From assembly GCA_028284195.1 (NCBI GenBank), contig JANQSE010000006.1, forward strand, positions 620,001-684,000: a stretch of DNA of 64,000 bases. Direction: 5' to 3'. A program made the translations under genes and the position numbers. This document shows, in pieces, positions 2,031-18,536 of the stretch. Under the pieces are notes generated by a model that ran no database searches, was not told where the DNA came from, and saw only the letters and a list, made by a program, of their open reading frames with translations. This DNA is from Balneola sp. (GTDB taxonomy: Bacteria > Bacteroidota > Rhodothermia > Balneolales > Balneolaceae). The stretch's first letter is position 1. Every line of letters starts with the position of its first letter.

Positions 2031-2588
2031 CTACGAAGTATGAGAAGATTCAGCTTTGGCTAGCTCGTATTTGAGAGTAGATGGCGCAACCCCAAAGTCA
2101 TCCGGAATCTGCACGTCCATAGTTCTGAGAATCAATCCTATAAGAGCGTAGTGATGCACAGTATGGCTGATTAAGAACTGAAGCTCTCTTCGGATAGTAG
2201 AAGAGCTCCAAGGCAGGTTTTCTTCCCCTATGCCTTCATTACTCATTACATCAATCTGTTTATCAATAAGGCCGGGTTTATTTAAAAATATTTCTATTGA
2301 ATCAATAATGGTTCGTAATGTTGTTATTGAAAACTCTCTGTCTGTTTCCAATTTTAAATCCCTGTCGCGTTCATCATAATTTACTTTACTTGTATAGCCA
2401 TTAACCAAGCTTATGTAGTGTTCTATTATGTGCCTGAAATGCCTGCCAATACCACTTTTAAAATACTTGCCATTATTAAAAGCGTACTGCTCATCAGTTA
2501 TAGATGACAAAAGATCAACTCCCTGGTTAAGGAAAAAAATATTAGACTTAACTACTGCTGTATTGTTTTGCATGTTCTGATTGTTCAA
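2031..2588 (-). CDS. DinB-fold family protein
   Basis: A 185-residue soluble protein predicted to be a four-helix DinB/YfiT-like bundle. Three His positions typical of the metal site can be picked out: one in GRHFRHIIEHY near residue 50 and the SHTVHH pair near residue 142. DinB-fold proteins include metal-dependent thiol transferases and many members of unknown activity. The start region overlaps the end of the upstream acyltransferase by 41 bases (26 if the second Met at 2573 is used), which points to translational coupling in the lipid operon. A role in lipid metabolism is only inferred from the neighbours. Confidence 0.75.
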   Translation of the reverse strand: MNNQNMQNNTAVVKSNIFFLNQGVDLLSSITDEQYAFNNGKYFKSGIGRHFRHIIEHYISLVNGYTSKVNYDERDRDLKLETDREFSITTLRTIIDSIEIFLNKPGLIDKQIDVMSNEGIGEENLPWSSSTIRRELQFLISHTVHHYALIGLILRTMDVQIPDDFGVAPSTLKYELAKAESSHTS

Positions 2589-3339
2589 TTATCGGTACAA
2601 ACCCTTCGCTTACTTTCCTATATAAATGTTCAGCAAGCAACTTACGATCATTATTGAGAATAGGTTCATCCCCAAAGGTAATTGTACCGTAAATTTTCTT
2701 AAGCTTCAACAAGTCTGTGAAATGTGAGAGAAAAGTTACATCTCCCCACCAACATACAGAATCTGAAGCATTTATTTCTCCTTCCGGAGTTTCGTACCTG
2801 ATTGTTGAGTAGTGAACCGGAATGTTATTTTCAGCCGGATAGACCAATAAAGATGCTTTAAACGGTAACACCTTAAACCCTCCACTGGTTGTACTTTCCG
2901 GAAAAAGAAGTATCCCTTGTTCTTCGGTTATATTATCAGATATAAGTTTATTTACTCGCTTAACATCACTGCGTTTGTTCCTGTTTACAAATAGCATACC
3001 AACTGTGCGTGTCATAAATCCAAATAATGGCCAGCTTAGTACATCATTTTTAGCTACAAAAACACATCTCAGTTTCGAAATAAGCATCATAATATCTACA
3101 TAGCTAAGATGATTAGAAACAAAAAAGAAAGGCGGTTTAGGGGGAGTACCATGTACCGTAATTTCTAACCTAATCACTTTACACATTAGTGCCCCCCATA
3201 AACTTAAAAAATAAGTCGACCATGCCCTCCCCTTTAAACCAATTAGTGAAAATACATAACCGGGAAGCACTAATAAGTAGCAAAATACTGTTACCAGCAT
3301 AATCAGCAACAGCTTTATCATAACAATTAAAAACCTCAT
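2548..3339 (-). CDS. 1-acyl-glycerol-3-phosphate acyltransferase family (PlsC/OlsA-like)
   Basis: A membrane acyltransferase of the PlsC family that transfers an acyl chain to a lyso-lipid. The N-terminus is hydrophobic (two predicted helices in the first 40 residues). The catalytic NH(X4)D motif is present as NHLSYVD (residues 76-82), and FPEST about 65 residues later matches the substrate-binding motif. I chose the ATG at 3339 (263 aa): the longer frame from 3405 would overlap the preceding gene by 50 bases and add a non-conserved leader. It lies directly after an OlsB-like N-acyltransferase, the arrangement known for ornithine-lipid (olsBA) and Bacteroidota glycine-lipid (glsBA) synthesis, where this enzyme adds the second, ester-linked chain. 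The head-group amino acid cannot be read from sequence. Confidence 0.85.
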   Translation of the reverse strand: MRFLIVMIKLLLIMLVTVFCYLLVLPGYVFSLIGLKGRAWSTYFLSLWGALMCKVIRLEITVHGTPPKPPFFFVSNHLSYVDIMMLISKLRCVFVAKNDVLSWPLFGFMTRTVGMLFVNRNKRSDVKRVNKLISDNITEEQGILLFPESTTSGGFKVLPFKASLLVYPAENNIPVHYSTIRYETPEGEINASDSVCWWGDVTFLSHFTDLLKLKKIYGTITFGDEPILNNDRKLLAEHLYRKVSEGFVPIIEQSEHAKQYSSS

Positions 3340-3355
3340 GAAGAAAGGTAAAAAA

Positions 3356-4144
3356 CTATTTAAAAAATAATGCTCTTGTTTGTTCAGAAATAGCTTCCAG
3401 ATCAAGCAGAATTAAGAAATCAATAGTTTTAAATTGAGTATCTAAGGCAGGCGGACTGCATACTTTACATCCCACATCAAGGTATAGCCGAAATAATTGT
3501 GGAAGCTTAATTACACCGTTAAATTTTGAATGATTATCAGTGAAGCAATCGAAATCGGGTTTAACGGCTACTAAATAATCCGGATGCATAAAACCGTTTT
3601 CCCTTAGGTGTTTATAAAATGCTTGCCCTTCTGATTTATCCTGACTTGTTATCGAGCAACAACCAAATAAATATCTCTTATTTGTAGCAAGCATATATTT
3701 AGCCAATCCCCTCCATAGGAGATATAAAACACGTCCATTTCTGTGGTCCCTGTCTATGCAAGCTCTTCCAAGTTCAAATGCGTCGTTAAGTATAAATTCC
3801 GGGAACTCTGAAATGTCAAACTCATTCATAGTATAAAAACCTTCCCCGGAAGCGGCACTTTCACTATCCTGCAAGCGATACGTACCTACTATTTTTGAAG
3901 ACTTGGTTTCTATTACAATAAGGTGATCGCAGTATTTATCATATATGTCTTCGTCCATTTCTGATTTGTATGACTCCTGCAACCCTTCTCCCAATTCTAT
4001 ATTGAATACATAAAATCGTAACCGAAGTGCTTCTTCTATTTCCTGCCTGTTACTGGCTAAACGAACCGTGTATTTACCACTTTCAATGATTAATTCATTT
4101 TTTTTTTGGTCAGAGTATTTTTTTGCTCGTAAATCCATAGTCAT
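3356..4144 (-). CDS. GNAT-family N-acyltransferase, OlsB/GlsB-like (hemolysin-type acetyltransferase)
   Basis: A 262-residue protein of the OlsB/hemolysin-A-like acyl-ACP-dependent N-acyltransferase family, which makes lyso-aminolipids by attaching a 3-hydroxy fatty acid to an amino-acid amine. Family features seen: ALRLRFYVFNIELGEG near residue 40, DKYCDHLIVIE and IVGTYRL in the middle, then FELGRACIDRDHRNGRVLYLLWRGL (split as FELGRACID and NGRVLYLLWRGL) and FGCCSI. It is the first gene of the minus-strand operon, followed 16 bases later by the PlsC-like gene. A second ATG two codons in (4138) is an equally good start. A simple protein acetyltransferase is less likely given the PlsC partner. 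Confidence 0.82.
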   Translation of the reverse strand: MTMDLRAKKYSDQKKNELIIESGKYTVRLASNRQEIEEALRLRFYVFNIELGEGLQESYKSEMDEDIYDKYCDHLIVIETKSSKIVGTYRLQDSESAASGEGFYTMNEFDISEFPEFILNDAFELGRACIDRDHRNGRVLYLLWRGLAKYMLATNKRYLFGCCSITSQDKSEGQAFYKHLRENGFMHPDYLVAVKPDFDCFTDNHSKFNGVIKLPQLFRLYLDVGCKVCSPPALDTQFKTIDFLILLDLEAISEQTRALFFK

Positions 4145-4246: not shown

Positions 4247-5035
4247 ATGCTTTATTACAAGGAATATATAAAATCTGAAGTAGCAGAATGGGTTGTTTTT
4301 GTGCACGGAGCCGGTGGAAGCTCAAGTATTTGGTTTAGCCAAATTAAAGCATTTAAAGAAGAATTTAATGTGCTTCTTATCGATTTACGCGGCCATGGCC
4401 GATCAAAAGACCTTCTCCAAAAGTATTATGAAGAAAATTATTCTTTTGAAAACATAAGCAAAGATATTCTGGAGGTTATCGACCATTTAAGTATTGAAAA
4501 AGCCCATTTTGTTGGGGTTTCTTTGGGAACCATAATAATACGCTCTTTGAGTGAAATTGCACCTGAGCGCGTACATTCTTCCATTCTTTGTGGGGCTATT
4601 ACCCATATGAATATCCGATCCAGAATATTGGTTTTTATTGGGCATTTATTTAAACGGGTAGTGCCATATATGTGGCTCTACAGGTTTTTTGCATGGATAA
4701 TAATGCCTCGAAAACATCATGAAAAATCAAGAAGCCTTTTTATTGGTGAAGCAAAAAAATTAGCCCAAAAAGAGTTCATTAAGTGGTTTAAACTCACTAA
4801 TGAGGTAAATCCGTTACTGCGTTACTTCAAAGAAAAAGAAGTGGCAATTCCAATGCTTTATGTTATGGGAGAAGAGGATTATATGTTTTTACCTCCGGTA
4901 AAAAACATTGTAGAAAACCATGAAATGTCTTTTCTAAAGGTAATTAAAAATTGCGGGCATGTTTGCAACGTAGAAAAACCTGATCAATTCAATGAAGTAT
5001 CAATCAATTTTCTGAAAAAATACTCAATGAGCTAA
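4247..5035 (+). CDS. Alpha/beta hydrolase
   Basis: A 262-residue soluble alpha/beta-fold hydrolase. The oxyanion HGAGG motif is at 20-24, the nucleophile elbow GVSLG places Ser at 92, and the acid and base are probably Asp211 (GEEDYMF) and His238 (NCGHVCNVEKP). The cap region (about 125-190) is basic and aromatic. Substrate cannot be deduced. It is divergent from the lipid operon across a 102-base gap and converges with the secretin gene, whose end lies one base away. Unlike the hydrolase-like domain of the fusion protein at 1-2024, its triad is intact. Confidence 0.85.
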   Translation: MLYYKEYIKSEVAEWVVFVHGAGGSSSIWFSQIKAFKEEFNVLLIDLRGHGRSKDLLQKYYEENYSFENISKDILEVIDHLSIEKAHFVGVSLGTIIIRSLSEIAPERVHSSILCGAITHMNIRSRILVFIGHLFKRVVPYMWLYRFFAWIIMPRKHHEKSRSLFIGEAKKLAQKEFIKWFKLTNEVNPLLRYFKEKEVAIPMLYVMGEEDYMFLPPVKNIVENHEMSFLKVIKNCGHVCNVEKPDQFNEVSINFLKKYSMS

Positions 5036-5036
5036 A

Positions 5037-6908
5037 CTAATTGTCTTTTTTAAACTCAACATCTGACTGTATTGTAAACAGCCAGGTTTCATCGTTTATT
5101 TCTTTTCTCATCCTTTTTGCAGTTTCAACTGCTTCGTCATAGTCAGAAAAACTGTAGTATGCTACATAGTTAAAACGTGTACTAGGATGAAATAAAATTC
5201 TCGATTCATATCCCTGAGAGTCTAACAGTTTTGCAAAGTTAGTTGCGTTGTTTGGCACAATAAATGATCCGCCTATTACAAAGTACTTCAGGTTCGAATC
5301 ATCTGCCGGAGTTTCAACTTCTCCTTGTTCTCGCTTAGCAAGATATTCATTCAGGTCGAAAGCCTTAGGAACCACTACCATCAATTCCGGGTTTTTGATA
5401 GGCATGCTCAATTTTTCAAGCTCTTGTTTTTGTTCGTTAGTAAGCTCCTTTTTTTCCTCTGTTGAATCGGCTTTTTGAACCGGTGTTTCTTTTTCGATCA
5501 CATCTGGTTCTTTGTTTACTATGGCTGTATCTGGCTTCTCTTCCATTTTAGTTTCCTCCGTTTTAGGAGTAGGAAGCCCTCGTTCTTCTTCCGAAATCAC
5601 ATAGTCCATTTCATTTTTAAAACGATCGCGAGCTGCTGCCAAAACTTCACCTTTAGACTGTAATTTTTCATCCATTCTCTCTGCTAAAGTTTTTTCCAAC
5701 TCAGCCTGAATGATTATAACTAACTCGTTCTCAACTTTGTCATTTGAGCTGTAACCAAATAAATATTTAAGCCCCAAAAACCAACCAGGAAGATCTTTAA
5801 GAAATGGTATTCCACGACGAACTTTAATTTCAGAAGTCCTGTAAAGCCCTGCGATTGCAGTCGCTTCACCATTTAATACTAATGTTTGGGTATCTACCTG
5901 TTGTTTATTGATAATAGTACTTACGGCATCCGGTAGTGCAGAAGAACGTTCCGCACTTATATCCAGATGAATAAAGGTAGTGTCATTGTAATCAATTACA
6001 GTAGGTGTAACGGTAAGAATAGTACCTGTGCTAAAAAATGCATCGGTTACATTACCAGCAAAATCTCTTTGCTTTACAGAAAAATCCTGACCATCCTGAA
6101 TCTTTCCCTCAACTCCATCTACTACTTTTACTGAAGGAGTAGCTATAACACTTCCTAAGTTGTTTGATTCAAATGTGCTAAAAAGAGCCTGTACACTAAT
6201 ACCAGGGCCTATTTCACCTAAGTTAACCAAAGCATTAAATACATTTTGAGAAACCTGATTCGCATTAGAAGCATTTATAGATACAAACTGATCAACAAAA
6301 GCTGTTTGTGGAATAGATTCGTTTGCACCGGCACCAACAAAATCTTGAATATTGGCAGGAACATTACTTGTTAATGTGGACCAATCAATACCTATTTCTT
6401 CTAACGCCCTTCGGTTGCCTTCAAAAAAGGTAGCATTAATTCGTACTTCCCTGGTTTCTGTGGTATGAGTGGTAGCTATTGAAGCAGGATCGACAGCACC
6501 TGCATTGGAGACTTGTGCCTCTCCACTACCGGGAGAATCTGAAATTGGAGTAACAATTATCTCATAATAATCTGGATATTCTTTAAGTGTCAACTCCCGT
6601 ATTCTAAGTATATAATTCAGAGCGTCTTTCCAGTGCATTGGAGGTAAACTAACACCAATTTCCCCTGTGTAACCAGAAAGATCTACCACGAACTTATTCT
6701 CATACTCTTGCATGAATTGATTTATTACCTCAACTGTTTCAGTAAAATCAGTGCTGCGATCAAAGGTTACAATCTCATCCGGGTTTGTGTATTCCCTGAA
6801 TGGATTCTTGGTTTGTGCCATACTATTTGAAGTAACCAAAACGCATAGCAAAGCAAGTAGCATAGCACTTGTTGAATATGTTGTGATATTTTTTGCAAAT
6901 GATTTCAT
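5037..6908 (-). CDS. Secretin (PilQ/GspD-like) with C-terminal SPOR-like domain
   Basis: Predicted outer-membrane secretin, 623 aa, forming the exit pore of the pilus/secretion machine. A Sec signal peptide ends near SMAQ (30-32). Residues about 55-120 resemble an STN/N0 domain; residues about 235-405 are the secretin homology domain, with ATPSV, VTPTV and the late signature GIPFLKDLPGWFLGLKYLF at 366-384. A long Glu/Lys/Pro-rich linker (405-535) leads to a SPOR-like alpha/beta repeat (540-615: FVIGGSFI...YVAYYSFSDYDEAVETAKRM). SPOR domains of other proteins bind denuded peptidoglycan glycan strands, so this one could anchor the pore to the wall. The fusion is unusual. Its ATG overlaps the stop of the PilO-like gene (ATGA), so it is the last gene of the operon. 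Confidence 0.85.
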   Translation of the reverse strand: MKSFAKNITTYSTSAMLLALLCVLVTSNSMAQTKNPFREYTNPDEIVTFDRSTDFTETVEVINQFMQEYENKFVVDLSGYTGEIGVSLPPMHWKDALNYILRIRELTLKEYPDYYEIIVTPISDSPGSGEAQVSNAGAVDPASIATTHTTETREVRINATFFEGNRRALEEIGIDWSTLTSNVPANIQDFVGAGANESIPQTAFVDQFVSINASNANQVSQNVFNALVNLGEIGPGISVQALFSTFESNNLGSVIATPSVKVVDGVEGKIQDGQDFSVKQRDFAGNVTDAFFSTGTILTVTPTVIDYNDTTFIHLDISAERSSALPDAVSTIINKQQVDTQTLVLNGEATAIAGLYRTSEIKVRRGIPFLKDLPGWFLGLKYLFGYSSNDKVENELVIIIQAELEKTLAERMDEKLQSKGEVLAAARDRFKNEMDYVISEEERGLPTPKTEETKMEEKPDTAIVNKEPDVIEKETPVQKADSTEEKKELTNEQKQELEKLSMPIKNPELMVVVPKAFDLNEYLAKREQGEVETPADDSNLKYFVIGGSFIVPNNATNFAKLLDSQGYESRILFHPSTRFNYVAYYSFSDYDEAVETAKRMRKEINDETWLFTIQSDVEFKKDN

Positions 6909-7774
6909 CGTTCCACCTTTAAAGTGAATAGTTCTTTTATGCCGCCTTTATTAAGATCAAAAATAACTTCTCTGTTGTTTGTGTCAATTGAATCAAGATA
7001 ACCTAAATATACTTTATCTCCCGGTCTCAAAATTTTTGTATCACCATTTTGATCAACCAAAAAAACTCTGGCGCTTGTAAACCCAAGTAATCTTGAACTT
7101 TCTACATTAACAAGGTTATCGATATTTTCAGGAACCTCATTAAGGATTAATGGTTTAAAAGGGTTGAAAACTGAAACATCAGGATTTACTCTGAATCGTT
7201 CTGATTCAGATGCGTTTGTCGCAAGTTCTTCTTTTTGATAATAGCTTTTTAGTTCCAGTGAAAAACTAATGTATTCGTTAACATCAAAATCAGAAGTGCT
7301 GGGAACGGGGTTTAAATTCACTTGTTCTATTTTATTGAGCAGCTGGCTGTTTTCAATTTTGTTAATAAAGGTAATAAAATCTGAATAGGTACTTGTACCC
7401 TTTACAGTTGAATTAATGATTCCATACAGATCTTGAGCTACAGAATCTTCAAAAGTAAAGTCATAGAAAAGTTCCAAATTTCCCTCGTTAATTTCACTCA
7501 AATAGTCATAAACATCATCAGGATTGTTTGCCTTATACATAGTTTTATCGTAGCCAAGTATGATGTCTTTTGCTAAATTATATCGCTCTAACAACGGGGG
7601 ATACTGATTACTTATATTCGTTTTTTCTGTTAAATCCTGTTCCAAAGAACTTAACTCAGTAGTTAATTTTTCTATTTCTGCTTCTTGTACAAACTTTATA
7701 TATGCAAAAGCTGCGCCTGCAAAAATAAGTAATGTAACTAGTAGAATAATGGTATTTCTTATTGCGTACGACAC
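6905..7774 (-). CDS. PilO-like inner-membrane protein with PilP-like C-terminal domain
   Basis: A 289-residue bitopic membrane protein: short cytoplasmic start, one helix (about 7-28), a coiled coil (about 29-60), a ferredoxin-like PilO-type periplasmic part, then a beta-rich tail from about 195 that begins FNPFKPL and runs through SSRLLGF, RPGDKVYLGYLDSI and ELFTLKV. That tail matches the usual pattern of PilP, the lipoprotein linking PilN/PilO to the secretin, which here seems to be fused rather than separate. It sits three bases after the PilM/N fusion gene and overlaps the secretin gene by four bases. Assignment rests on topology, order and the PilP-like motifs. Confidence 0.7.
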   Translation of the reverse strand: MSYAIRNTIILLVTLLIFAGAAFAYIKFVQEAEIEKLTTELSSLEQDLTEKTNISNQYPPLLERYNLAKDIILGYDKTMYKANNPDDVYDYLSEINEGNLELFYDFTFEDSVAQDLYGIINSTVKGTSTYSDFITFINKIENSQLLNKIEQVNLNPVPSTSDFDVNEYISFSLELKSYYQKEELATNASESERFRVNPDVSVFNPFKPLILNEVPENIDNLVNVESSRLLGFTSARVFLVDQNGDTKILRPGDKVYLGYLDSIDTNNREVIFDLNKGGIKELFTLKVER

Positions 7775-7776
7775 TA

Positions 7777-9534
7777 TTAACCTCCACCTAGCACTTGTTT
7801 TAACCCTTGAGCACTTTCCGGGGTATATATTTCTTTGTCTGCAACAATCTTAGTTACCCTGTATTTAAAAGAAAATACTTCTTGCCCTCGTATTGTGATT
7901 CTACTTACATCAAGAAGAACAGCTTCACTAAAAATATCTGCCACCATCGGAATCCTGTCTCTTTGTAAAGCTATTCCATCAATGTTCAAAGCTGTACTAT
8001 TTTGTGCGCTGGCAATCCTTGTAAACCAAATAGAATTTATGTTATCAATTCCTTTGTTGATTAAATTCAGATTTGTAGACCATGCTAATGTTCCTTCACT
8101 TAAATCGTTTAGTAACTGTAGCTGCACTTGTATTCCGGAAAGCTCGCTACTTACCCGATTATACTCCTGAACTATGGATTCTAAACTAGTGATTTGAGAT
8201 TTGGTATTAGAAATGTTGGTACTAAGACTAGTGATCTGATCTGAGTTTTTTTGATAGAAAAAATTCGTGATTGGAAAAGTAGCAACTATAAGTATTAAAA
8301 GCAGAATGCCGTGCCATTGCAGTTTAAATATTTTTTGGCGGTCTTTAATGTATTCCGGTAAAAAATTAATATCGGGATATGATTTTTTTTGAAAACCGGC
8401 ATCGGCCCATGCCATTGAAATAGCAGTAGTAAAAGAAGCAACGGCTTGCTTGTCGTGGTTTTCAGTTACAAACAAGTTTTCATTAAATTCAAAATCAGAA
8501 ACTTCTATATCCGGGAATCTATCCCTAAAAAAGGATATAGCCTCATCACCTAAAGTGTTATTACAAAGTATAAGTCTATCTAAGTTTGGAATTTCTCCCG
8601 TATCAAGTTGAAATAGAATTTTACTGAATACCGTATTAAGAAATTTTTTCGAAGATGAACCTTCTGCAATAATTGGTGAAACGATCAGTATATCAGTTCC
8701 TTCCAGAAATATAACTCTACAGTTTTCTTCTCCATATTGAATTAAAGCTGTAATGCTTTCCGGATCCAGATCATAGTTAGCTCGCAGCAGACCAATAGTT
8801 AGTGCTTCATCAGGGATAACCTCATTAAATACCAATTTACCGCTGTATACATTTCCAGCAGAAAGTAGTAACTGAAGAGTTTGTGGTTCTTCATCAACAG
8901 ATACTAATAAAAGAGAGCCATCTTCCCGAACCGAATAGGAATGATAATCTTTTCCTTTTGGATTGCCATACAAAGATTCAAGGCGGTCATCCACAATTAT
9001 TTGCAGATCTTTATTCTTAATAGATCCAAAGTCTACATCTTTTAAAATTTGGAATACCGTTGATCCCGCTGGAACATTAGTACTTAGCTTTACTCCTGAA
9101 GGATCTATCTCTGTTAAAACGTTATAGATTACAAGCTCATTACTTGTAGCAGCTTCTCCTTCCAGTTCACTCGCCGCCATATCACCTAAGTTCAAAATAT
9201 CGCCGTCATCCTTATCATCATCCAAACCAGCAAGATCCAAATCAAGATCTAACTCGTCATTTTCCACATCAAGATCATCAAGATTAAGATTTAAGTCTTC
9301 TTCAGCTTTTGGCCTATCATCAGTATTAAAAACAGAATCGTCTTCAAGCGTGTCATCAAATGCATCGAAAATCTCTTCTGATCCTGAGGTGCTATCTGCT
9401 CTTTGAACAGCTTGTGCCAACTTAATCTTATCAAGTTTTTCAAGATAGGCGGTTTTTCCTGAAATACTTATTTGTGCAATCTTAATTGAATTGTCTTCTA
9501 ATACTACACCGGTATAAAGCTTTTTACCTGCCAT
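7777..9534 (-). CDS. PilM-PilN fusion-like pilus assembly protein
   Basis: About 585 aa from an ATG at 9534; a GTG at 9552 would overlap the preceding gene by 17 bases. The N-terminus (TGVVLEDNSIKIAQIS) resembles the first strands of actin-like PilM. An Asp/Leu-rich acidic insertion (about 60-125) interrupts it, and a beta/alpha region follows to about 385. Next comes the PilN entry motif (DINFLPEYIKDRQ, near 390), a membrane helix (about 407-425), a Ser/Gln-rich coiled coil and a PilN-like periplasmic domain. In ordinary type IVa pili PilM and PilN are separate proteins that bind through this very INxLP peptide; here they are one chain. The ATP-binding residues of PilM are not obvious, so nucleotide binding is doubtful. 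Confidence 0.75.
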   Translation of the reverse strand: MAGKKLYTGVVLEDNSIKIAQISISGKTAYLEKLDKIKLAQAVQRADSTSGSEEIFDAFDDTLEDDSVFNTDDRPKAEEDLNLNLDDLDVENDELDLDLDLAGLDDDKDDGDILNLGDMAASELEGEAATSNELVIYNVLTEIDPSGVKLSTNVPAGSTVFQILKDVDFGSIKNKDLQIIVDDRLESLYGNPKGKDYHSYSVREDGSLLLVSVDEEPQTLQLLLSAGNVYSGKLVFNEVIPDEALTIGLLRANYDLDPESITALIQYGEENCRVIFLEGTDILIVSPIIAEGSSSKKFLNTVFSKILFQLDTGEIPNLDRLILCNNTLGDEAISFFRDRFPDIEVSDFEFNENLFVTENHDKQAVASFTTAISMAWADAGFQKKSYPDINFLPEYIKDRQKIFKLQWHGILLLILIVATFPITNFFYQKNSDQITSLSTNISNTKSQITSLESIVQEYNRVSSELSGIQVQLQLLNDLSEGTLAWSTNLNLINKGIDNINSIWFTRIASAQNSTALNIDGIALQRDRIPMVADIFSEAVLLDVSRITIRGQEVFSFKYRVTKIVADKEIYTPESAQGLKQVLGGG

Positions 9535-9535
9535 T

Positions 9536-10780
9536 TTAGTAATCTGCCTCACTTAAAAGTTGAACCATCTTGGTTTTGTTATTTGAGTAGTTGATTGCAT
9601 TTTCTTTTGAAATTTTGCCTCCAAGAAATAAGCGTTTCAGGTCTTGCTCTAAGGTATTCATGCCTTGTTGGCTGCCTTCCATTTGCATCTGGTAAATTTC
9701 ACCAATGTTATTATTTCGAATAGCTGCTTTAACCGATGCATTAGCTATTAATACTTCCTTAGCCAAAACACGCTTCCTGTCTAGGCTTGGCACCAGTTTT
9801 TGACTGATTACACATGTTAATACATCCGCAAGCCTGTTTCTTACACGGTTCTGTTCTTCGGTAGGAACTTCACCCAAAATCCGCTCGATGCTATCCATTG
9901 CTGATGATGTATGGAGAGTACTAAATGTTTTATGCCCTGAATCAGTAATCTCGAGAGCAGTTAAAATTGTATCTGAATCTCTAAGCTCTCCAATCACTAT
10001 TATATCCGGATCCTGCCTAAGTGCCTGGATAGCTCCATCTTTAAAAGATTCCACATCACGACCAACCTCGCGATGCCTTACAACAGAACGAATAGGTTTA
10101 TGAATTAACTCAACTGGAGAAGAAATTACAACTATATGTGAATCTACAGTTCGGTTATTAGCATCAATAATAGTATCTAATGTTGAAGATTTACCCGAAC
10201 CTGTAATACCTGTAATTAAACTGAGCCCATATTTGTAATACTTTAAACTCAGTGCTTTTGCTACTTCTGCACCTACCCCAAGAGATTTAAATGGCCGAAT
10301 GGTGTTATCGATTTTACGCATATTAAGAGCAAGATGCCCCATATCTAAATACATATCCGCCCTGAATCTTTGAGTATTCCCTTCGCCTAACTCAACACTA
10401 TATGAAAAATCTAAATTTCTATCATTATGCAGCTTTTCTCTTTGCCTGTCGATTATAATATTTAGTAGTAAAAAATCTGTTTCTTGTAAAGTAAAATTCT
10501 GATTTTTATCTGTAGGAGATTTGTCTCCATAAATTCTGTACCACACTTTTCCATCGCAACCGGGACCACCCAGGTCTATATCAGATGCTTCGTTTTTAAG
10601 CATAGCCTTTAAATAGCCATCTAATATATCTTTTAAAGCAGAACGAGCTTCTTGTGATTGTCCGTCTACAATCTCTCCCATTTTAACAAACAGCTCACTC
10701 CCGCTAGCGGCAAACGGTATCTGCTTTATAAGGGGAGCTGCAAGCTCTGTTAGTGTATGTTTTTTTTCAGCCGTCTGCAT
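9536..10780 (-). CDS. PilT/GspE-family ATPase (retraction-type)
   Basis: A 414-residue hexameric secretion-ATPase family member. Walker A is GITGSGKSS (191-199), the Walker B/Glu region is DPDIIVIGELRD (258-268) and the His box is FSTLHTS. The short N-terminal PAS-like half and the absence of a CxxC zinc motif fit PilT/PilU rather than PilB. The Asp box, usually carrying acidic residues before P(I/V)E, reads ISSPVE, a departure worth noting. Its stop is immediately followed by the PilM/N ATG. It may power retraction or be an accessory motor to the PilB-like ATPase encoded upstream. Confidence 0.85.
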   Translation of the reverse strand: MQTAEKKHTLTELAAPLIKQIPFAASGSELFVKMGEIVDGQSQEARSALKDILDGYLKAMLKNEASDIDLGGPGCDGKVWYRIYGDKSPTDKNQNFTLQETDFLLLNIIIDRQREKLHNDRNLDFSYSVELGEGNTQRFRADMYLDMGHLALNMRKIDNTIRPFKSLGVGAEVAKALSLKYYKYGLSLITGITGSGKSSTLDTIIDANNRTVDSHIVVISSPVELIHKPIRSVVRHREVGRDVESFKDGAIQALRQDPDIIVIGELRDSDTILTALEITDSGHKTFSTLHTSSAMDSIERILGEVPTEEQNRVRNRLADVLTCVISQKLVPSLDRKRVLAKEVLIANASVKAAIRNNNIGEIYQMQMEGSQQGMNTLEQDLKRLFLGGKISKENAINYSNNKTKMVQLLSEADY

Positions 10781-10873
10781 AAATACTCATTCTTATAGAA
10801 TGATTTGTGTAATAGATGATTCTTTAAAAAAATATTGTGATATACTTAAGTTGAAATCAGATTATTGTGTTTG

Positions 10874-11371
10874 TTACCAATTGTTATCGTTTAATAACCT
10901 TTTTTTCAAATTAAGCAACTGTACATTCATGTTACTAATTTTTCTTTGTTGTATTTCGATGATATTTTTTGTGAAAATGTTAAACAATTTTTCTGGTTTT
11001 TTTCGGAAAAAATTGAGCGCATCATATCTTTTATACCTTAGTAAAATACAATCACCTTCTGCAGTTACTTTTGCCATTCTACTATTCTTGCTAAAAAGAA
11101 ACGCTTCTCCTAAAAAATTTCCTTCCGAAAGTGTTGCCAGTTGGATCCCATCCTTCCATATCGCAACTTTTCCTGTAGCTACAAGATAAGCGGAATTTAC
11201 ACTCTCTGATTCATTTAAAATACTATCGCTATCCATATAGCGTTCTTCCACACCAATTTGAAGGAACTCCAATACATCTTCATAATGAAAATTTCTTAAA
11301 AGAAGCGGAGGCTCCTTTAAAAACTTCTTCAAATATTCTGGCGTTTTATCTGTGTTATCCTGCTTATCCAT
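10874..11371 (-). CDS. Cyclic nucleotide-binding domain protein
   Basis: A 165-residue protein with one CNB beta-barrel (about 30-135) and no DNA-binding or enzyme domain. The phosphate-binding-cassette pattern is kept as LGEAFLFSKNSRMAKV, with the Gly-Glu pair and the Arg-x-Ala of nucleotide-binding members. A lysine-rich helix ends the protein. It lies between the two pilus ATPase genes on the same strand, so it may be a cAMP- or c-di-GMP-responsive control subunit of the machine. That role is inferred from position only; the gaps of 78 and 93 bases on either side leave room for separate transcription. Confidence 0.8.
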   Translation of the reverse strand: MDKQDNTDKTPEYLKKFLKEPPLLLRNFHYEDVLEFLQIGVEERYMDSDSILNESESVNSAYLVATGKVAIWKDGIQLATLSEGNFLGEAFLFSKNSRMAKVTAEGDCILLRYKRYDALNFFRKKPEKLFNIFTKNIIEIQQRKISNMNVQLLNLKKRLLNDNNW

Positions 11372-11449
11372 AGTAGTTAGTCCCCTGAAACCATAATATC
11401 GGTAAAATGATTATTAATATTTAATAAGTCCATCGATATTTCAAAAAAA

Positions 11450-13231
11450 TTAATCTTCTAATGTGCCTGCTATTACTTCTTCAATTGTAGTAATACCTTC
11501 TTTGATACGCTCTATACCTGAACCCCTAAGTGTTAGCATTCCCTGAGACATAGCAAGTTCTTTGATTGCACCTTCATCAACATCACTACCAGATTCAAGT
11601 ACTAATTCTTTAATTTCTTTAGAAAAAAATAATGCTTCATGAATAGCAGAGCGCCCTTTAAAGCCTGAGGTTCCACATACCTTACAGCCTACAGCTTTAT
11701 AAAAAGTAGTCTTTTCATATTCCTCATCTGTAAAGCCAATACCTTTTGCCGTTTCAATATGAGGGCGATACTCTTCTTTGCATTCATTACATAATCTTCT
11801 TATCAGCCGCTGTGCCATAACCAGATTAACAGCGTTGGCGATCAAAAAAGGTTCTACTCCCATCTTAAACAAACGAGAAACAGCACTGGGAGCATCATTT
11901 GTATGTAAAGTTGAAAATGTTAAGTGACCTGTATTTGCTAATTTAATTGCAATCTCAGCAGTTTTTAGATCACGCATCTCACCTACCAAAACAATATCCG
12001 GGTCATGACGAAGAATACCTCTTATTGATTGGTCGAAGGTCATATGGTTACTGATTTTTAACTGACGAGCACCTTCAATGATATATTCTACAGGTTCCTC
12101 AATGGTTAAAACATTTTTTGTTGGATCAATTACTGAGTACAAAGCTGCAACTAAAGTAGTAGATTTACCACTACCTGTGGGGCCCGTTATAATTACAATC
12201 CCAGAAGGTTGACTAATCGATTTCACAAAATTTTCTTTTGCTACTTTTTGCAATCCCAGCAGATCCAAATCCCGGATTACTTTTCTATCATCAAGAACCC
12301 GAATTACTGTAGATTCAAATTTCCGATCGTATTGATTTCCTACGATCGGCATGATAGAAACACGGTATCTAATTCCAATACCATCAATTTGTCGCTGTAT
12401 AAACCCATCCTGAGAAGCATCTCTTTCAAAACGGTCAACATTTCTGGTCTTATCTTTAATTACTGCAGAAATTGCTTCCGGCTTTACATTTTTCTGTTGA
12501 TACCAGAGTTGTAGTTTACCATCGATTCGAAATCTTATATCAGTGGTGGTAGGCCCACTTGGTATTATATGCAAATCACTAACTCCTTGGCGAACCGATT
12601 CTACTAACATACCTTCTACCAGAGAATTAAGCATACTTTGATTAATCTCTGCATCAATCTCTTCTTCATCAATACTCTCTTCTTCTTCAGCGCCTACTAA
12701 TTGGTTTTCTTCCTGGTCAATTTCTTCCAGAAGATCTAAAAATTCATTTTTCTGCTCATATACATTATTAAGGATACTCTCTATAAAATCATACCTACAA
12801 TAAACAAGTTCTGTATTTTTAAAATTAAGTTTTTGAATTACATTTTGAATATTAGGATCAGAAGGATCTGCAGCTGCTACAGTAATTGCATTGTTCGCTC
12901 TATGAAAAGGAATAGCTTTTAGTACTACAAGTTCGTCTATAACGTCATTATCGATATCTTCTATATTTTTTTTTATATGCTGAATAATCTCTTCTGAAAC
13001 CGCTTCAGCACCTTCAAGAACTTCCCGGAAAGCATAAATCTCAGCAACTTCTTTCATTATTGTATGCCTGTCAAGGCCAATATCTTGAAAGAGAATTTGT
13101 CCCAATCTTCTGTTACTAGTCTCTGGTTCGAGCTCCAAAATCTCCAAGGCCTCTTTTAACTGATCTTCAGTGATGATTTTCTTTTTTACAAGAATTTCAC
13201 CGATATGCCTTCTAACATTTATTTTACCCAT
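11450..13231 (-). CDS. PilB/GspE-like assembly ATPase
   Basis: A 593-residue assembly ATPase. Residues 1-165 form an N-terminal T2SSE_N/MshEN-like region (RRHIGEILVKKKIITEDQL...). An acidic linker (166-195) follows, then the motor: Walker A GPTGSGKST (350-358), Asp box TIEEPVEY (377-384), Walker B DPDIVLVGEMRD (410-421), His box FSTLHTND. The zinc site is present as CNEC (481-484) and CKVC (516-519). MshEN-type domains often bind c-di-GMP, but I cannot confirm the ligand residues. It should drive polymerisation of the pilins encoded upstream, and abuts the PilC gene with no spacing. Confidence 0.92.
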   Translation of the reverse strand: MGKINVRRHIGEILVKKKIITEDQLKEALEILELEPETSNRRLGQILFQDIGLDRHTIMKEVAEIYAFREVLEGAEAVSEEIIQHIKKNIEDIDNDVIDELVVLKAIPFHRANNAITVAAADPSDPNIQNVIQKLNFKNTELVYCRYDFIESILNNVYEQKNEFLDLLEEIDQEENQLVGAEEEESIDEEEIDAEINQSMLNSLVEGMLVESVRQGVSDLHIIPSGPTTTDIRFRIDGKLQLWYQQKNVKPEAISAVIKDKTRNVDRFERDASQDGFIQRQIDGIGIRYRVSIMPIVGNQYDRKFESTVIRVLDDRKVIRDLDLLGLQKVAKENFVKSISQPSGIVIITGPTGSGKSTTLVAALYSVIDPTKNVLTIEEPVEYIIEGARQLKISNHMTFDQSIRGILRHDPDIVLVGEMRDLKTAEIAIKLANTGHLTFSTLHTNDAPSAVSRLFKMGVEPFLIANAVNLVMAQRLIRRLCNECKEEYRPHIETAKGIGFTDEEYEKTTFYKAVGCKVCGTSGFKGRSAIHEALFFSKEIKELVLESGSDVDEGAIKELAMSQGMLTLRGSGIERIKEGITTIEEVIAGTLED

Positions 13232-14569
13232 CTAAATACCGGAATTCGGCTTAATAACAGCGGATTCTGATGAAACAACAGTAATACCTACTAATGCTAT
13301 CATAATAAATAAATTAACAAAAAGGCTGATAGTATCAACAACCGATTGCATTTTATAGGTAGTTTGAACTTCATAATACTCAGCTAATTGCTTGGCATTT
13401 TCTCTTAATGACCCTGATTCAGCTCCTAATCTAAACCTGCTAATAGCTGTTCGTGTAAATACACCTGTTTCTTCCATAGACTCGATAAGCCCTGCGCCAT
13501 CTTTAAGCATGCGTTTTATGGCAATATCTTTAATCTGCTTTTCCATATAAGTATTTCTGCAGGCTTCGCTGGCAACTTTTATCACTTCAATGTTTTGTCC
13601 AGACCCGCTGTACAAAGTGTAAAATACTCTTGCAAAAATCTCAATACTTGTTTTATGCAAAAGATCTCCTATAACGGGTATTTTAATTATATAACGATCA
13701 ATCAGAAGTTTACCCTTTACTGTTTTACCAAAATAAATAAGTCCTGCTACTGGAGCTAAAAAACTTACCAGCAAGAGTATCCAGTTATCCGAAAGCCAAT
13801 AACTAATGTCGAGTGTGGTTGCCGTCATCGGAGGGAGTTCAATTCCCATTTCAACAAAAAGTTCAGCAGTTGATGGAAAAATATACCCTACATAAAATAA
13901 AACAACCCCGATAACAGCTACTACAGTCACAGCAGGCATCATCAAAGAGCGTTTCATATTTTTCTTAAACTCGGCATCTCTTTCTAAAAACTTGGCAGTA
14001 CTTTCAAAAACCAATCCCATATTACCCGAAGTGGATGCTACACTAAGCATGTATGCTGCAAATTTCCCAAATATAGCTTCGTGTTTTCCATAAACCTCTG
14101 AACCTTCTTTACCAGCTTTAAGATCTTTCTGAATAGTTTTAATAACCTCTTTCATTCTTTTATTGCCAGTATCTTCATATAGAAGATTGAGAATTTCGTC
14201 AAAAGTAAGTTGCTGATTTAATAAGTCGGCCGATAAACTTATGAAAGTAACAACTTCGCTATGCGGTACACCTCCCTGAAAGTTAAAAAGCTTTTTGTTT
14301 ATGCTAACAACTTCATAACCAAGTTTAACCAGTGCTTTTTCTACTTCTTCTTTTGTATAAGCTTCTTGCTCTCCATTTAACGCAGGCTTACCGAGTCGCC
14401 TGACTCTATAAAGAAAAACAGATTTCTCTTCTATCGATTGAACTTTAAGGCCATTCGTCTTAGAAATCTTATCTACTTTAATTTGAGCATCTTTTTTTGT
14501 GTCTGCTTCAAATTCTTTTTGAATTATCTTACCGGCATTAGAAACAGCCTTTAATCTAAATTGTGCCAT
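13232..14569 (-). CDS. PilC/GspF-like inner-membrane platform protein
   Basis: A 445-residue type II secretion F-family protein. The first 100 residues are soluble and contain two short repeats like those found before T2SSF domains. Two GspF domains follow (about 105-230 and 305-430), each ending in membrane helices, with a third helix pair between them. Recognisable segments include GKFAAYMLSVASTSGNMG and FRLGAESGSLRENAKQLAEYY. It is the membrane base on which PilB turns and pilins are added. It begins 18 bases after the second pilin gene and ends where PilB begins, consistent with one transcript. Confidence 0.92.
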   Translation of the reverse strand: MAQFRLKAVSNAGKIIQKEFEADTKKDAQIKVDKISKTNGLKVQSIEEKSVFLYRVRRLGKPALNGEQEAYTKEEVEKALVKLGYEVVSINKKLFNFQGGVPHSEVVTFISLSADLLNQQLTFDEILNLLYEDTGNKRMKEVIKTIQKDLKAGKEGSEVYGKHEAIFGKFAAYMLSVASTSGNMGLVFESTAKFLERDAEFKKNMKRSLMMPAVTVVAVIGVVLFYVGYIFPSTAELFVEMGIELPPMTATTLDISYWLSDNWILLLVSFLAPVAGLIYFGKTVKGKLLIDRYIIKIPVIGDLLHKTSIEIFARVFYTLYSGSGQNIEVIKVASEACRNTYMEKQIKDIAIKRMLKDGAGLIESMEETGVFTRTAISRFRLGAESGSLRENAKQLAEYYEVQTTYKMQSVVDTISLFVNLFIMIALVGITVVSSESAVIKPNSGI

Positions 14570-14587
14570 ATACTATTATTTAGAAAA

Positions 14588-14953
14588 TTAATTCCAGGTT
14601 AAGCCAGATTTAGTAACTGTGGCCGAAATTGTATCTTTCCGATCCCGGGTTACGGCAGATATAGTAAAAGATTCCGTACCTCTAGTCAAAATAAAATAAA
14701 ATCCATTGAAACCGGTAGTATCTATTCCTAAATCTTCATAAGAAATGCTAGCGAAGCTACCGCCCCCGCCTCCTAATATAACTGGTTTTGCAAAATATGA
14801 TTGAGCTTGAGTTGCTCCTAGCAGCATTTCTTGTCTAATTGCATCCTTATTCGATTCGTTATTTAATTCACCAAAAGTTGTTACTGCTACGGCAATAGAG
14901 ATACCAACAATTAACATTACTAAGATCGTTAGAAGCAATTCTTTATTTGCCAT
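14588..14953 (-). CDS. Atypical pilin-like protein, second copy
   Basis: A 121-residue pilin paralogue of the protein encoded just upstream. A five-residue polar start (MANKE) leads straight into a 22-residue hydrophobic helix, then a polar helix containing KDAIRQEM and AQSYFAKP, the motif VILGGGGGSF, and a small beta domain ending SGLTWN. There is no canonical prepilin site (Gly then Phe-Thr-Leu-x-Glu). It shares with its paralogue the DAxRQ...AQxYFxKPxxLGGGGxSF block and the GLTW tail. It lies beyond an intrinsic terminator, so is probably made in smaller amounts and may be a minor subunit. Homology to type IV pilins is inferred from topology and operon. Confidence 0.72.
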   Translation of the reverse strand: MANKELLLTILVMLIVGISIAVAVTTFGELNNESNKDAIRQEMLLGATQAQSYFAKPVILGGGGGSFASISYEDLGIDTTGFNGFYFILTRGTESFTISAVTRDRKDTISATVTKSGLTWN

Positions 14954-14975
14954 GACATTGAATCAATTTAAACTT

Positions 14976-15001
14976 AAAAAAAAAGCCCCATGAAGGGGCT
15001 T
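14976..15001 (-). terminator. Intrinsic terminator between the two pilin genes
   Basis: A 7-bp perfect stem (AAGCCCC/GGGGCTT, 14983-14989 with 14995-15001) with a 5-base loop is followed on the minus strand by a run of about nine T. It lies 28 bases after the first pilin gene and before the second, so it probably limits read-through into the assembly genes while the major pilin is made in excess. Confidence 0.85.
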
Positions 15002-15028
15002 ATAATTTTATATAACTAATTACCAGAA

Positions 15029-15472
15029 TTAGTTATTTGCAACCCAAGTTAGTCCTGATGGACCAATTGTTCCTTGTAAAGCATTTGAACCGGCTTCAAG
15101 AGATGAAGTAAGTGACAATGGACCATCAGCTCTTGATGATGGTATTGCTGTAATAGTAACGGTAGTGTCATTAGTAGAGATTACATAATGCCCGTTAGAG
15201 TTAAATGCAGTTAATCCATCACCAGATACATCATTAGTAGGGAAAGCTACTTGGTTGAAAGTAATACCATTGAAGCTATTTCCACCTCCACCAAGCATTG
15301 TTGGCTTCATGAAGTAACCTTGTGCAGAAGAAGCAAACTGAGCAACGTCTTGACGAACAGCGTCAAGGTTCGCATTATCAGATGCACTAGAGAAGGTATT
15401 AATAGCAACTACAGTTGCAATACCTACGATAATTGTTACTAGAATAACTAGAAGTAATTGTTGTTGTCCCAT
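15029..15472 (-). CDS. Atypical major pilin-like protein
   Basis: A 147-residue protein, probably the main filament subunit. MGQQQ precedes a hydrophobic helix (about 6-27), followed by an amphipathic stretch with LDAVRQDV and AQGYFMKP, then the TMLGGGGNSF motif and a Ser/Thr/Asn-rich globular part ending SGLTWVANN. If a leader is removed it is only two residues (after Gly2), and the mature position 5 would be Leu rather than Glu. An AGGAGA ribosome site lies five bases before the ATG (15478-15483). As first gene of the locus, with its own terminator, it should be strongly expressed. The same layout occurs, from memory, in hypothetical proteins of other FCB bacteria. Confidence 0.75.
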   Translation of the reverse strand: MGQQQLLLVILVTIIVGIATVVAINTFSSASDNANLDAVRQDVAQFASSAQGYFMKPTMLGGGGNSFNGITFNQVAFPTNDVSGDGLTAFNSNGHYVISTNDTTVTITAIPSSRADGPLSLTSSLEAGSNALQGTIGPSGLTWVANN

Positions 15473-16955: not shown

Positions 16956-17063
16956 ATAGATTATTTAAGAACTTTTCTTTCAAGTACGATAAATTTATAT
17001 GTAACTTTACGGCCGTTTAAAATATCTTTTAAAAAGAAAAAAATATCCATGAAAGGAAAAGCC

Positions 17064-18536
17064 ATGAAAACATATCATCTGTCACGCATATTCCTATTAT
17101 TTTCTGTTGCTGCTTTTTTAGGTTGTGAAAGCCCCAGCAGTAACGATGTATCCATATCAGGACGAGTTGTAAACAATAGCTCTGGAGAGCCACTCAGTGA
17201 AGCAGTTGTCGTAATAACAGCTCCCGCTCAATTTCAAAACGAATCTAAAATTACTGGAGCTGATGGATCTTTTCGATTTTCGGGATTAAATGTAAATGAA
17301 GCTACAGATATCAGCATTGAAGCTCGTAAAACTGGGTTTGACAGAGTTTCTATTACGGTACCGGCCACTCCCGGACGGGATATTAATGTAGAGCAGCCGA
17401 TTGCTTTAATTCCTGAGGATACAGGTGGCGGCGGAGACAATGGCGGCGGCGGTGTTGCAGGGCCATCTACAGGTCCTGCTCAATTAATCTTAACCAGCGT
17501 TCCTGTTCAGGCTATAAATATTGCAGAAACCGGAGATCAAATTAGTGCGGCTTTTACATTTCAGGTTCAGGATTCTGCGGGTAGAGCACTTACTATTAGT
17601 AACCCTGCAAGGGTTAACTTTGATATTATATCAGGCCCTGGAGGCGGAGAACAGGTAACCCCTTCCAGTTTAACAACAAATGCAGCTGGAGAAGTTACAA
17701 CTGCTCTGTTTAGTGGTAATACAGCCGGACCCGTTAAAATACAAGCAAGCATTACCCGTGAAGATAATGGCCAGGTTATTCGCTCAACCCCTGTACTTAT
17801 TGCTATTCATGGAGGATTCCCGGATCAGAACCATTTTAGTATAACAATGGAGCCATTTAGCATTGAAGGGTACAACTTTAATAATGTAAGGAGTAATGTT
17901 ACAGTGATTGTTGGTGATCAATTCAGTAATCCTGTTAAACCCGGAACGGTTGTTTATTTTTCTACTTCAGGTGGCATCATACAAGGTTCCAGTCAAACCA
18001 ATGAAGATGGAGTGGCTAGCGTACAACTGATTACTGCTGCCCCCCGCCCTTCAGATAATATAACTGGAAGTGGAGGGCGTCTTGGTTACGGTACAGTTAC
18101 TGCAAGAACAATAGATCAAAATGATAATGCTATACTGGCAACTGCAGAATTTCTTTTTTCCGGAATCCCCCAAACGCCGATAGTTACCAGAAATGGCGGC
18201 GCAAACCCGGGCGATGGTTTTGCAATTCCACCTAATGGTGGGGTAAGTTTTGAATATACCGTAACCGACCAAAATGGAAACCCCTTGCCATCTGGAACAA
18301 TGTTTAAAGTGGAAGTTGGTGAAGGCTTGGATGCTACCGGAGACGTTGAATTTGAATTAGGTGATTTCTTATTCCCCGGCGAAGGTGCTACTCAATTTTC
18401 ATTCTCGGTTAGTGATATCGATGAAGATGCCAGCGATGTTGGTGGAACATCAATCAAAATTATAGTTACAACCCCCAAAGGAGTTTCAGCTTCAACCTCT
18501 ATTGAAGGAACAAGGGCAAAACGGATAAAAAATTGA
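17064..18536 (+). CDS. Lipoprotein with carboxypeptidase-regulatory-like and Ig-like (Big-1-type) domains
   Basis: A 490-residue surface or periplasmic lipoprotein. The ATG at 17064 is preferred to that at 17049 because AAAGGA lies five to ten bases before it; this gives a clean signal with lipobox FLGC and Cys21. Residues about 30-120 form a CarboxypepD_reg-like beta sandwich (ISGRVVNNSSGEPLSEAVV). A Gly-rich hinge follows, then two or three Ig-like domains of invasin/Big-1 type (TTNAAGEVTTALFSGNTAGPVKI; TNEDGVASVQLITA; TVTDQNGNPLPSGT). Such proteins are usually adhesive or structural. The gene ends four bases before the next one, suggesting co-transcription. Confidence 0.78.
   Translation: MKTYHLSRIFLLFSVAAFLGCESPSSNDVSISGRVVNNSSGEPLSEAVVVITAPAQFQNESKITGADGSFRFSGLNVNEATDISIEARKTGFDRVSITVPATPGRDINVEQPIALIPEDTGGGGDNGGGGVAGPSTGPAQLILTSVPVQAINIAETGDQISAAFTFQVQDSAGRALTISNPARVNFDIISGPGGGEQVTPSSLTTNAAGEVTTALFSGNTAGPVKIQASITREDNGQVIRSTPVLIAIHGGFPDQNHFSITMEPFSIEGYNFNNVRSNVTVIVGDQFSNPVKPGTVVYFSTSGGIIQGSSQTNEDGVASVQLITAAPRPSDNITGSGGRLGYGTVTARTIDQNDNAILATAEFLFSGIPQTPIVTRNGGANPGDGFAIPPNGGVSFEYTVTDQNGNPLPSGTMFKVEVGEGLDATGDVEFELGDFLFPGEGATQFSFSVSDIDEDASDVGGTSIKIIVTTPKGVSASTSIEGTRAKRIKN

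Follow-up and report, generated by a model that had tools for sequence, protein, structure and literature searches.

We think it quite likely that a nine-gene operon in the genome of a Balneola sp. specifies a retractile pilus of a type IVa-like kind, with subunits that are synthesized in mature form from the outset. Probably, too, the operon exemplifies a phylum-wide class of filaments that dispenses with prepilin processing: all of its pilins would be leaderless, there would be neither peptidase nor N-methylation, and subunits would assemble unprocessed, with no contact between Glu5 and the N-terminus.

The operon occupies positions 5037-15472 of the window (the whole 64,000-nucleotide stretch of contig JANQSE010000006.1 that was analyzed), where nine ORFs, all on the minus strand, lie as the first-pass annotation had described them. 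In order of transcription they encode pilin 1, pilin 2, PilC, PilB, a cyclic nucleotide (cNMP)-binding protein, PilT, a PilM-PilN fusion, a PilO-PilP-like protein and a secretin. The host genome is 2.68 Mb in size and 98.5% complete; its sole secretin and both of its T2SSE ATPases are encoded in the operon. The suspicion that this group harbors a distinct pilus class was borne out by synteny: the order of the operon is kept in relatives far beyond chance, and both gene order and gene fusions are common to order- and phylum-level relatives.

Some members of the family carry inserted genes between pilin 1, pilin 2 and PilC (L071:12559-13005, L076:12733-14178, L080:1627-3156 and L081:568-2064), including a nucleotidyltransferase-like ORF and multi-membrane proteins of 480-510 aa, and in two genomes (G010 and G028) the pilins lie ~10-15 kb from PilC. 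Beside the operon, at window positions 2548-4144 and 4247-5035, are genes for a GNAT protein of the Acetyltransf_5 family, a PlsC-type acyltransferase and an alpha/beta hydrolase; the first two resemble the OlsB/OlsA or GlsB/GlsA aminolipid pairs, and the acyltransferase pair and hydrolase hold the same flanking place in most of the family. Near the pilin end (17049-18536) is a gene whose lipoprotein-like product carries invasin-D3, Big_1 and carboxypeptidase-regulatory domains.

By profile comparison and predicted fold, the two small proteins of the operon are real type IV pilins. Pilin 1 (15029..15472; 147 aa, beginning MGQQQLLLVILVTIIVGIATVVAINTF) starts with MGQQQLLL, and pilin 2 (14588..14953; 121 aa, beginning MANKELLLTILVMLIVGIS) with MANKELLL. 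Neither protein matched curated pilin families. With a profile built from 51 relatives, solved type IV pilins were matched along helix 1, among them geopilin (9egp, 4.6e-4), PilE1 and Thermus PilA5. An AlphaFold model built from four sequences (mean pLDDT 79.6) predicts a lollipop, with a 55-residue helix (residues 2-55) followed by a sheet. When this model was compared with known structures by VIA-align, the top 11 rows were all type IV pilins (Z 5.3-8.1) and the first unrelated row scored 3.7; plain Foldseek returned nothing significant, its best match (E 0.81) being a PilA fusion. Pilins had been claimed among the nine genes and a PilA-type pilin had been declared missing; the former claim stands on profile and predicted fold, with the amendment that these pilins have no leader of any kind, and the latter gives way to the two leaderless type IV pilins.

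The leader is missing in relatives as well. In the profile alignment Gly17 coincides with Gly14, a conserved residue of mature pilins; on this basis the chain begins about three residues before the mature Phe1 and lacks a Glu at position 5. All 60 pilins collected from 33 loci start with MGQQQLLL, MANKE or close variants, and these first eight residues (MGQQQLLL) are the best-conserved stretch of the family. In 54 of the 60, an in-frame stop precedes the start by 0-7 codons, often directly adjoining it; in the open upstream stretches of the remaining pilins we found no ATG, GTG or TTG. The upstream stops mean that a leader peptide cannot be encoded, and they rule out misannotated start sites as the explanation. 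The operon thus has neither a class III signal peptide on its pilins nor a leader-bearing PilA-type major pilin with Glu5, and it is because the pilins are leaderless that standard leader-finding tools miss them.

The residue that precedes the cut in canonical prepilins is Gly, and Gly2 is conserved in more than 90% of the family. Met-Gly could therefore be read as a minimal two-residue leader removed by an unrecognized, non-A24 peptidase, and an enzyme of unknown fold could cut after Gly2. We regard this reading as very unlikely, since pilin 2 starts with MA, and the W-like and many V-like minor pilins described below with MN, MS or MH rather than MG; starts of MG, MA and MS are explained by ordinary Met removal through methionine aminopeptidase; and the operon contains no conserved protease gene.

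Direct synthesis of mature pilins fits the distribution of prepilin peptidases, which we surveyed in 148 genomes of the phylum, scoring the machine by its PilM-N protein. The machine was present in 50 genomes, and appears to be widespread in the phylum but overlooked; the pilin was present in 55, including all 50 machine genomes. The claim that prepilin peptidase is missing was upheld genome-wide: a search of this genome for A24 (PF01478) gave nothing above chance, and the best candidate (E 0.24) was identified as a KefC-like antiporter. PF01478 recovered A24 in 12 of 14 control genomes, and used alone it misses A24 in half of the genomes that have canonical N_methyl pilins. Because it is weak for the short A24 forms of some Bacteroidia, we built a wider profile (A8) that includes them. 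Short A24 peptidases of ~150-170 aa that PF01478 misses occur in G068, G073, G078, G134 and G146; these peptidases are related to ones in which GSAD or GAAD replaces GxGD.

Neither PF01478 nor the A8 profile found A24 in 43 of the 50 machine genomes. The shortcomings of PF01478 in some Bacteroidia could suggest that a divergent A24, overlooked or lost in assembly gaps, processes these pilins, and in principle the gene could lie in the missing 1.5% of this genome, whose class III minor pilins (see below) lack a visible peptidase. We consider this the least credible explanation, scarcely to be entertained: the A8 profile adds five genomes, none of them among the 43 or any other machine genomes, and the pilins offer no leader for a peptidase to cut. 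The presence of A24 follows canonical pilins. Nine of the 50 machine genomes have canonical N_methyl pilins, and A24 occurs in seven of these nine versus 0 of the 41 others (Fisher p 3.6e-7, without correction for shared ancestry). All seven A24-bearing machine genomes have a canonical system apart from the machine, and a second PilC occurs in each.

Two relatives show where the peptidase belongs. G003, of the same genus, and G012 have a separate canonical system elsewhere in the genome with its own secretin, a GFSLTE-type pilin and an adjacent A24, together with an ATPase in G003; the canonical pilin of G003 reads MKTSGRKFINDESGFSLTELLIV, a normal leader. The distribution of A24 and the existence of these separate systems indicate that the peptidase goes with the other system. 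The Balneola sp. genome has a locus at C4:442030-445351 (L038:8031-11352) that encodes a second PilC together with a PilX-like protein and two minor pilins of the canonical class III type, with no ATPase, secretin or peptidase. Only this half, with the minor pilins and PilC, is kept here and in G017; the other half is present in G003 and G012. The locus is a remnant of a different, Cytophaga-type system. Its canonical minor pilins were considered as parts of the machine and rejected, because the machine occurs without them in genus-mates and because, in relatives, they are part of the second system.

The machine has minor pilins of its own, and these too are leaderless. Between pilB and pilT, several order- and phylum-level relatives have three genes for proteins of ~140-175, 165-215 and 350-510 residues in which an N-terminal helix starts at once. 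The second carries a PilW-like DxRxxG motif, and the third the ARNxAxS motif expected of PilX/GspK; Pfam searches of the trio gave no match, and the names PilV-, PilW- and PilX-like are proposed here from the sizes, order and motifs of the proteins. Profile searches detected the X-like protein in 23 of 28 relatives, this genome included (C4:405317-406498, E 1.6e-45; W-like, E 1.2e-35). Its trio lies at C4:405254-407618, 217 kb from the operon, and comprises proteins of 172, 195 and 414 aa whose genes have stops 1 to 6 codons ahead of their starts. Relatives have similar cassettes, in some of which the open stretch upstream is longer, reaching 27 codons at most, and two or three cassettes occur in some genomes. 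The earlier statement that minor pilins with standard leaders are lacking is literally true, but leaderless ones exist at a distance. The case for a distinct class had rested on missing minor pilins and PilA; both are present, and being leaderless is their real peculiarity.

In some relatives, leaderless V-W-X cassettes (L163:7958-15409, L170:8410-16096 and L167:279-12173) have as neighbors genes for giant proteins that combine invasin-D3 with T9SS sorting tails, and for small DUF4402-like proteins. Cassettes in such surroundings are possibly exchangeable tip or adhesin cassettes.

The remaining genes specify motors, platform, alignment complex and secretin. Pfam or NCBIfam matches were obtained for both ATPases, the platform, the secretin and the cNMP-binding protein, as originally proposed. 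PilB (11450..13231; 320 bits to T2SSE) has an MshEN-like N-terminus and a tetracysteine motif and resembles the solved PilB 5zfr (2.8e-97); PilT (9536..10780; 308 bits to pilT_fam) resembles the solved PilT 2ewv (1.1e-65). The Walker and His motifs of both ATPases are intact in every locus. Between the two motor genes is that for a protein with a single cyclic-nucleotide-binding domain (10874..11371; PF00027, 45.3 bits). Its phosphate-binding cassette (GNFLGEAFLFSKNSRMAKV) is standard in the window and, by motif comparison of 28 loci, degenerate in some distant relatives.

The fused alignment complex that had been postulated is supported in its PilN and PilO parts by profile searches, the putative PilM and PilP parts being assigned by position and motif. 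The PilM-PilN protein (7777..9552) has a GspL-like architecture with a PilN-type INFLP motif before its membrane helix, and its family profile matches Myxococcus PilN in the solved pilus machine 3jc8 (1.5e-9); the PilM part is assigned by position and motif. The PilO protein (6905..7774) has a C-terminal PilP/HR-like domain. Its family profile matches Myxococcus PilO in 3jc8 (1e-4), and single relatives' proteins match Pfam PilN and PilO. A search with the last 90 aa returned no PilP family, and this part is assigned by motif; the structure prediction, made from two sequences, has a pLDDT of 45. The secretin (5037..6908) matches PF00263 with 95.6 bits. Of the proposed secretin-SPOR combination, the secretin is supported; the C-terminal SPOR-like domain is weak in the window protein (14.2 bits, below the 21-bit Pfam cutoff), passes in one relative (26 bits) and was not found in two secretins from outside the family.

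Several of these features are also compatible with a secretion pseudopilus. The PilM-PilN fusion has the architecture of GspL; the platform protein (13232..14569; T2SSF, 102 bits; GspF/PilC families) scores best as GspF; and the V-W-X trio parallels GspI/J/K. The operon might accordingly encode a T2SS-like secretion system that builds a short pseudopilus of leaderless pseudopilins rather than a surface pilus. T2SSs lack PilT, whereas a good PilT, nearest to true PilT, is present in 41 of 41 loci; moreover, PilB scores higher as PilB than as GspE, its nearest relative being the PilB of type IV pili, and relatives have a separate, canonical T2SS-like locus. We therefore judge this alternative unlikely, though less so than the two that invoke a peptidase.

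Under the favored reading of a retractile pilus, translation would start at the usual cutting site of prepilin peptidase or two to three residues ahead of it, so that no leader would be made and no peptidase needed. The N-terminal hydrophobic helix would insert the pilin into the inner membrane with its N-terminus inside, and the initiator Met would optionally be removed before Gly, Ala or Ser. The V-W-X trio may prime the filament and form its tip, behind which the PilM-N/PilO-P alignment complex, PilC and PilB would extract and polymerize subunits; the filament would leave through the secretin and be withdrawn by PilT. The cNMP-binding protein encoded between the motors probably regulates both, and may couple the cycle to a cyclic nucleotide. 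We infer that the filament forms and retracts with the pilin N-terminus uncut, save for possible removal of Met.

If this is correct, leader and peptidase constitute a targeting and maturation module, and filament assembly is possible without them; the machine would then show what replaces Glu5 and N-methylation. For annotators, it would mean that a whole class escapes pilin finders that rely on the leader. A leaderless machine would also offer a ready explanation for gene sets like that of Melioribacter roseus, considered here from its published gene list: pilT, pilQ, pilB and pilC are present in its genome, pilA and pilD were not found, and the set was judged incomplete (PMC3534657).

The finding that would have spoken against a distinct class, one-to-one orthologs of the operon in a known T4aP or T2SS locus complete with standard pilins and a peptidase, did not emerge. 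Reviews define type 4 prepilins by their class III signal peptide and consider processing by the peptidase to be required before assembly (PMC10191384); our searches of the open-access literature found no description of leaderless type IV pilins or of peptidase-free type IV pili. The Akkermansia pilus-like locus Amuc_1098-1102 shows weak likeness: PilM-N matches the Amuc_1101 family (E 0.004) and the secretin the Amuc_1098 family, both far below the family cutoffs. The T2SS shares a GspL-like M-N fusion and a pseudopilin-like trio, but the operon has PilT and a PilB-type ATPase, and neither a peptidase such as GspO nor leader-bearing pseudopilins. The Cytophaga-type T2SS of Bacteroidetes (CHU_3191-3202) comes from the same phylum and likewise has a secretin, an ATPase and a platform. 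It is divergent and branches with T4aP (Denise et al., PMC6668835), and has the A24 peptidase CHU_3197 and a GspG-type pseudopilin, with no PilT reported (PMC5553014). Its arrangement of A24 beside a canonical GspG-like pilin is absent from the operon and found at the separate locus in G003 and G012. With the type IVa pilus of Geobacter, Myxococcus and Thermus the machine shares PilB, the retraction ATPase PilT, PilC, a secretin, PilN and PilO with putative PilM and PilP parts, the predicted lollipop fold of the pilins and putative PilV/W/X-like minor pilins. It differs in its leaderless pilins, the absence of A24, of a Glu5 equivalent and, in the operon, of PilY1, the fusions PilM-N and PilO-P, and the added cNMP-binding protein. 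Judged by its genes, which include those for a pilin-fold subunit, PilB, PilC and a secretin, the machine resembles the type 4 filament superfamily; it would work like a T4aP, yet two of the usual hallmarks of type 4 filaments are missing from it.
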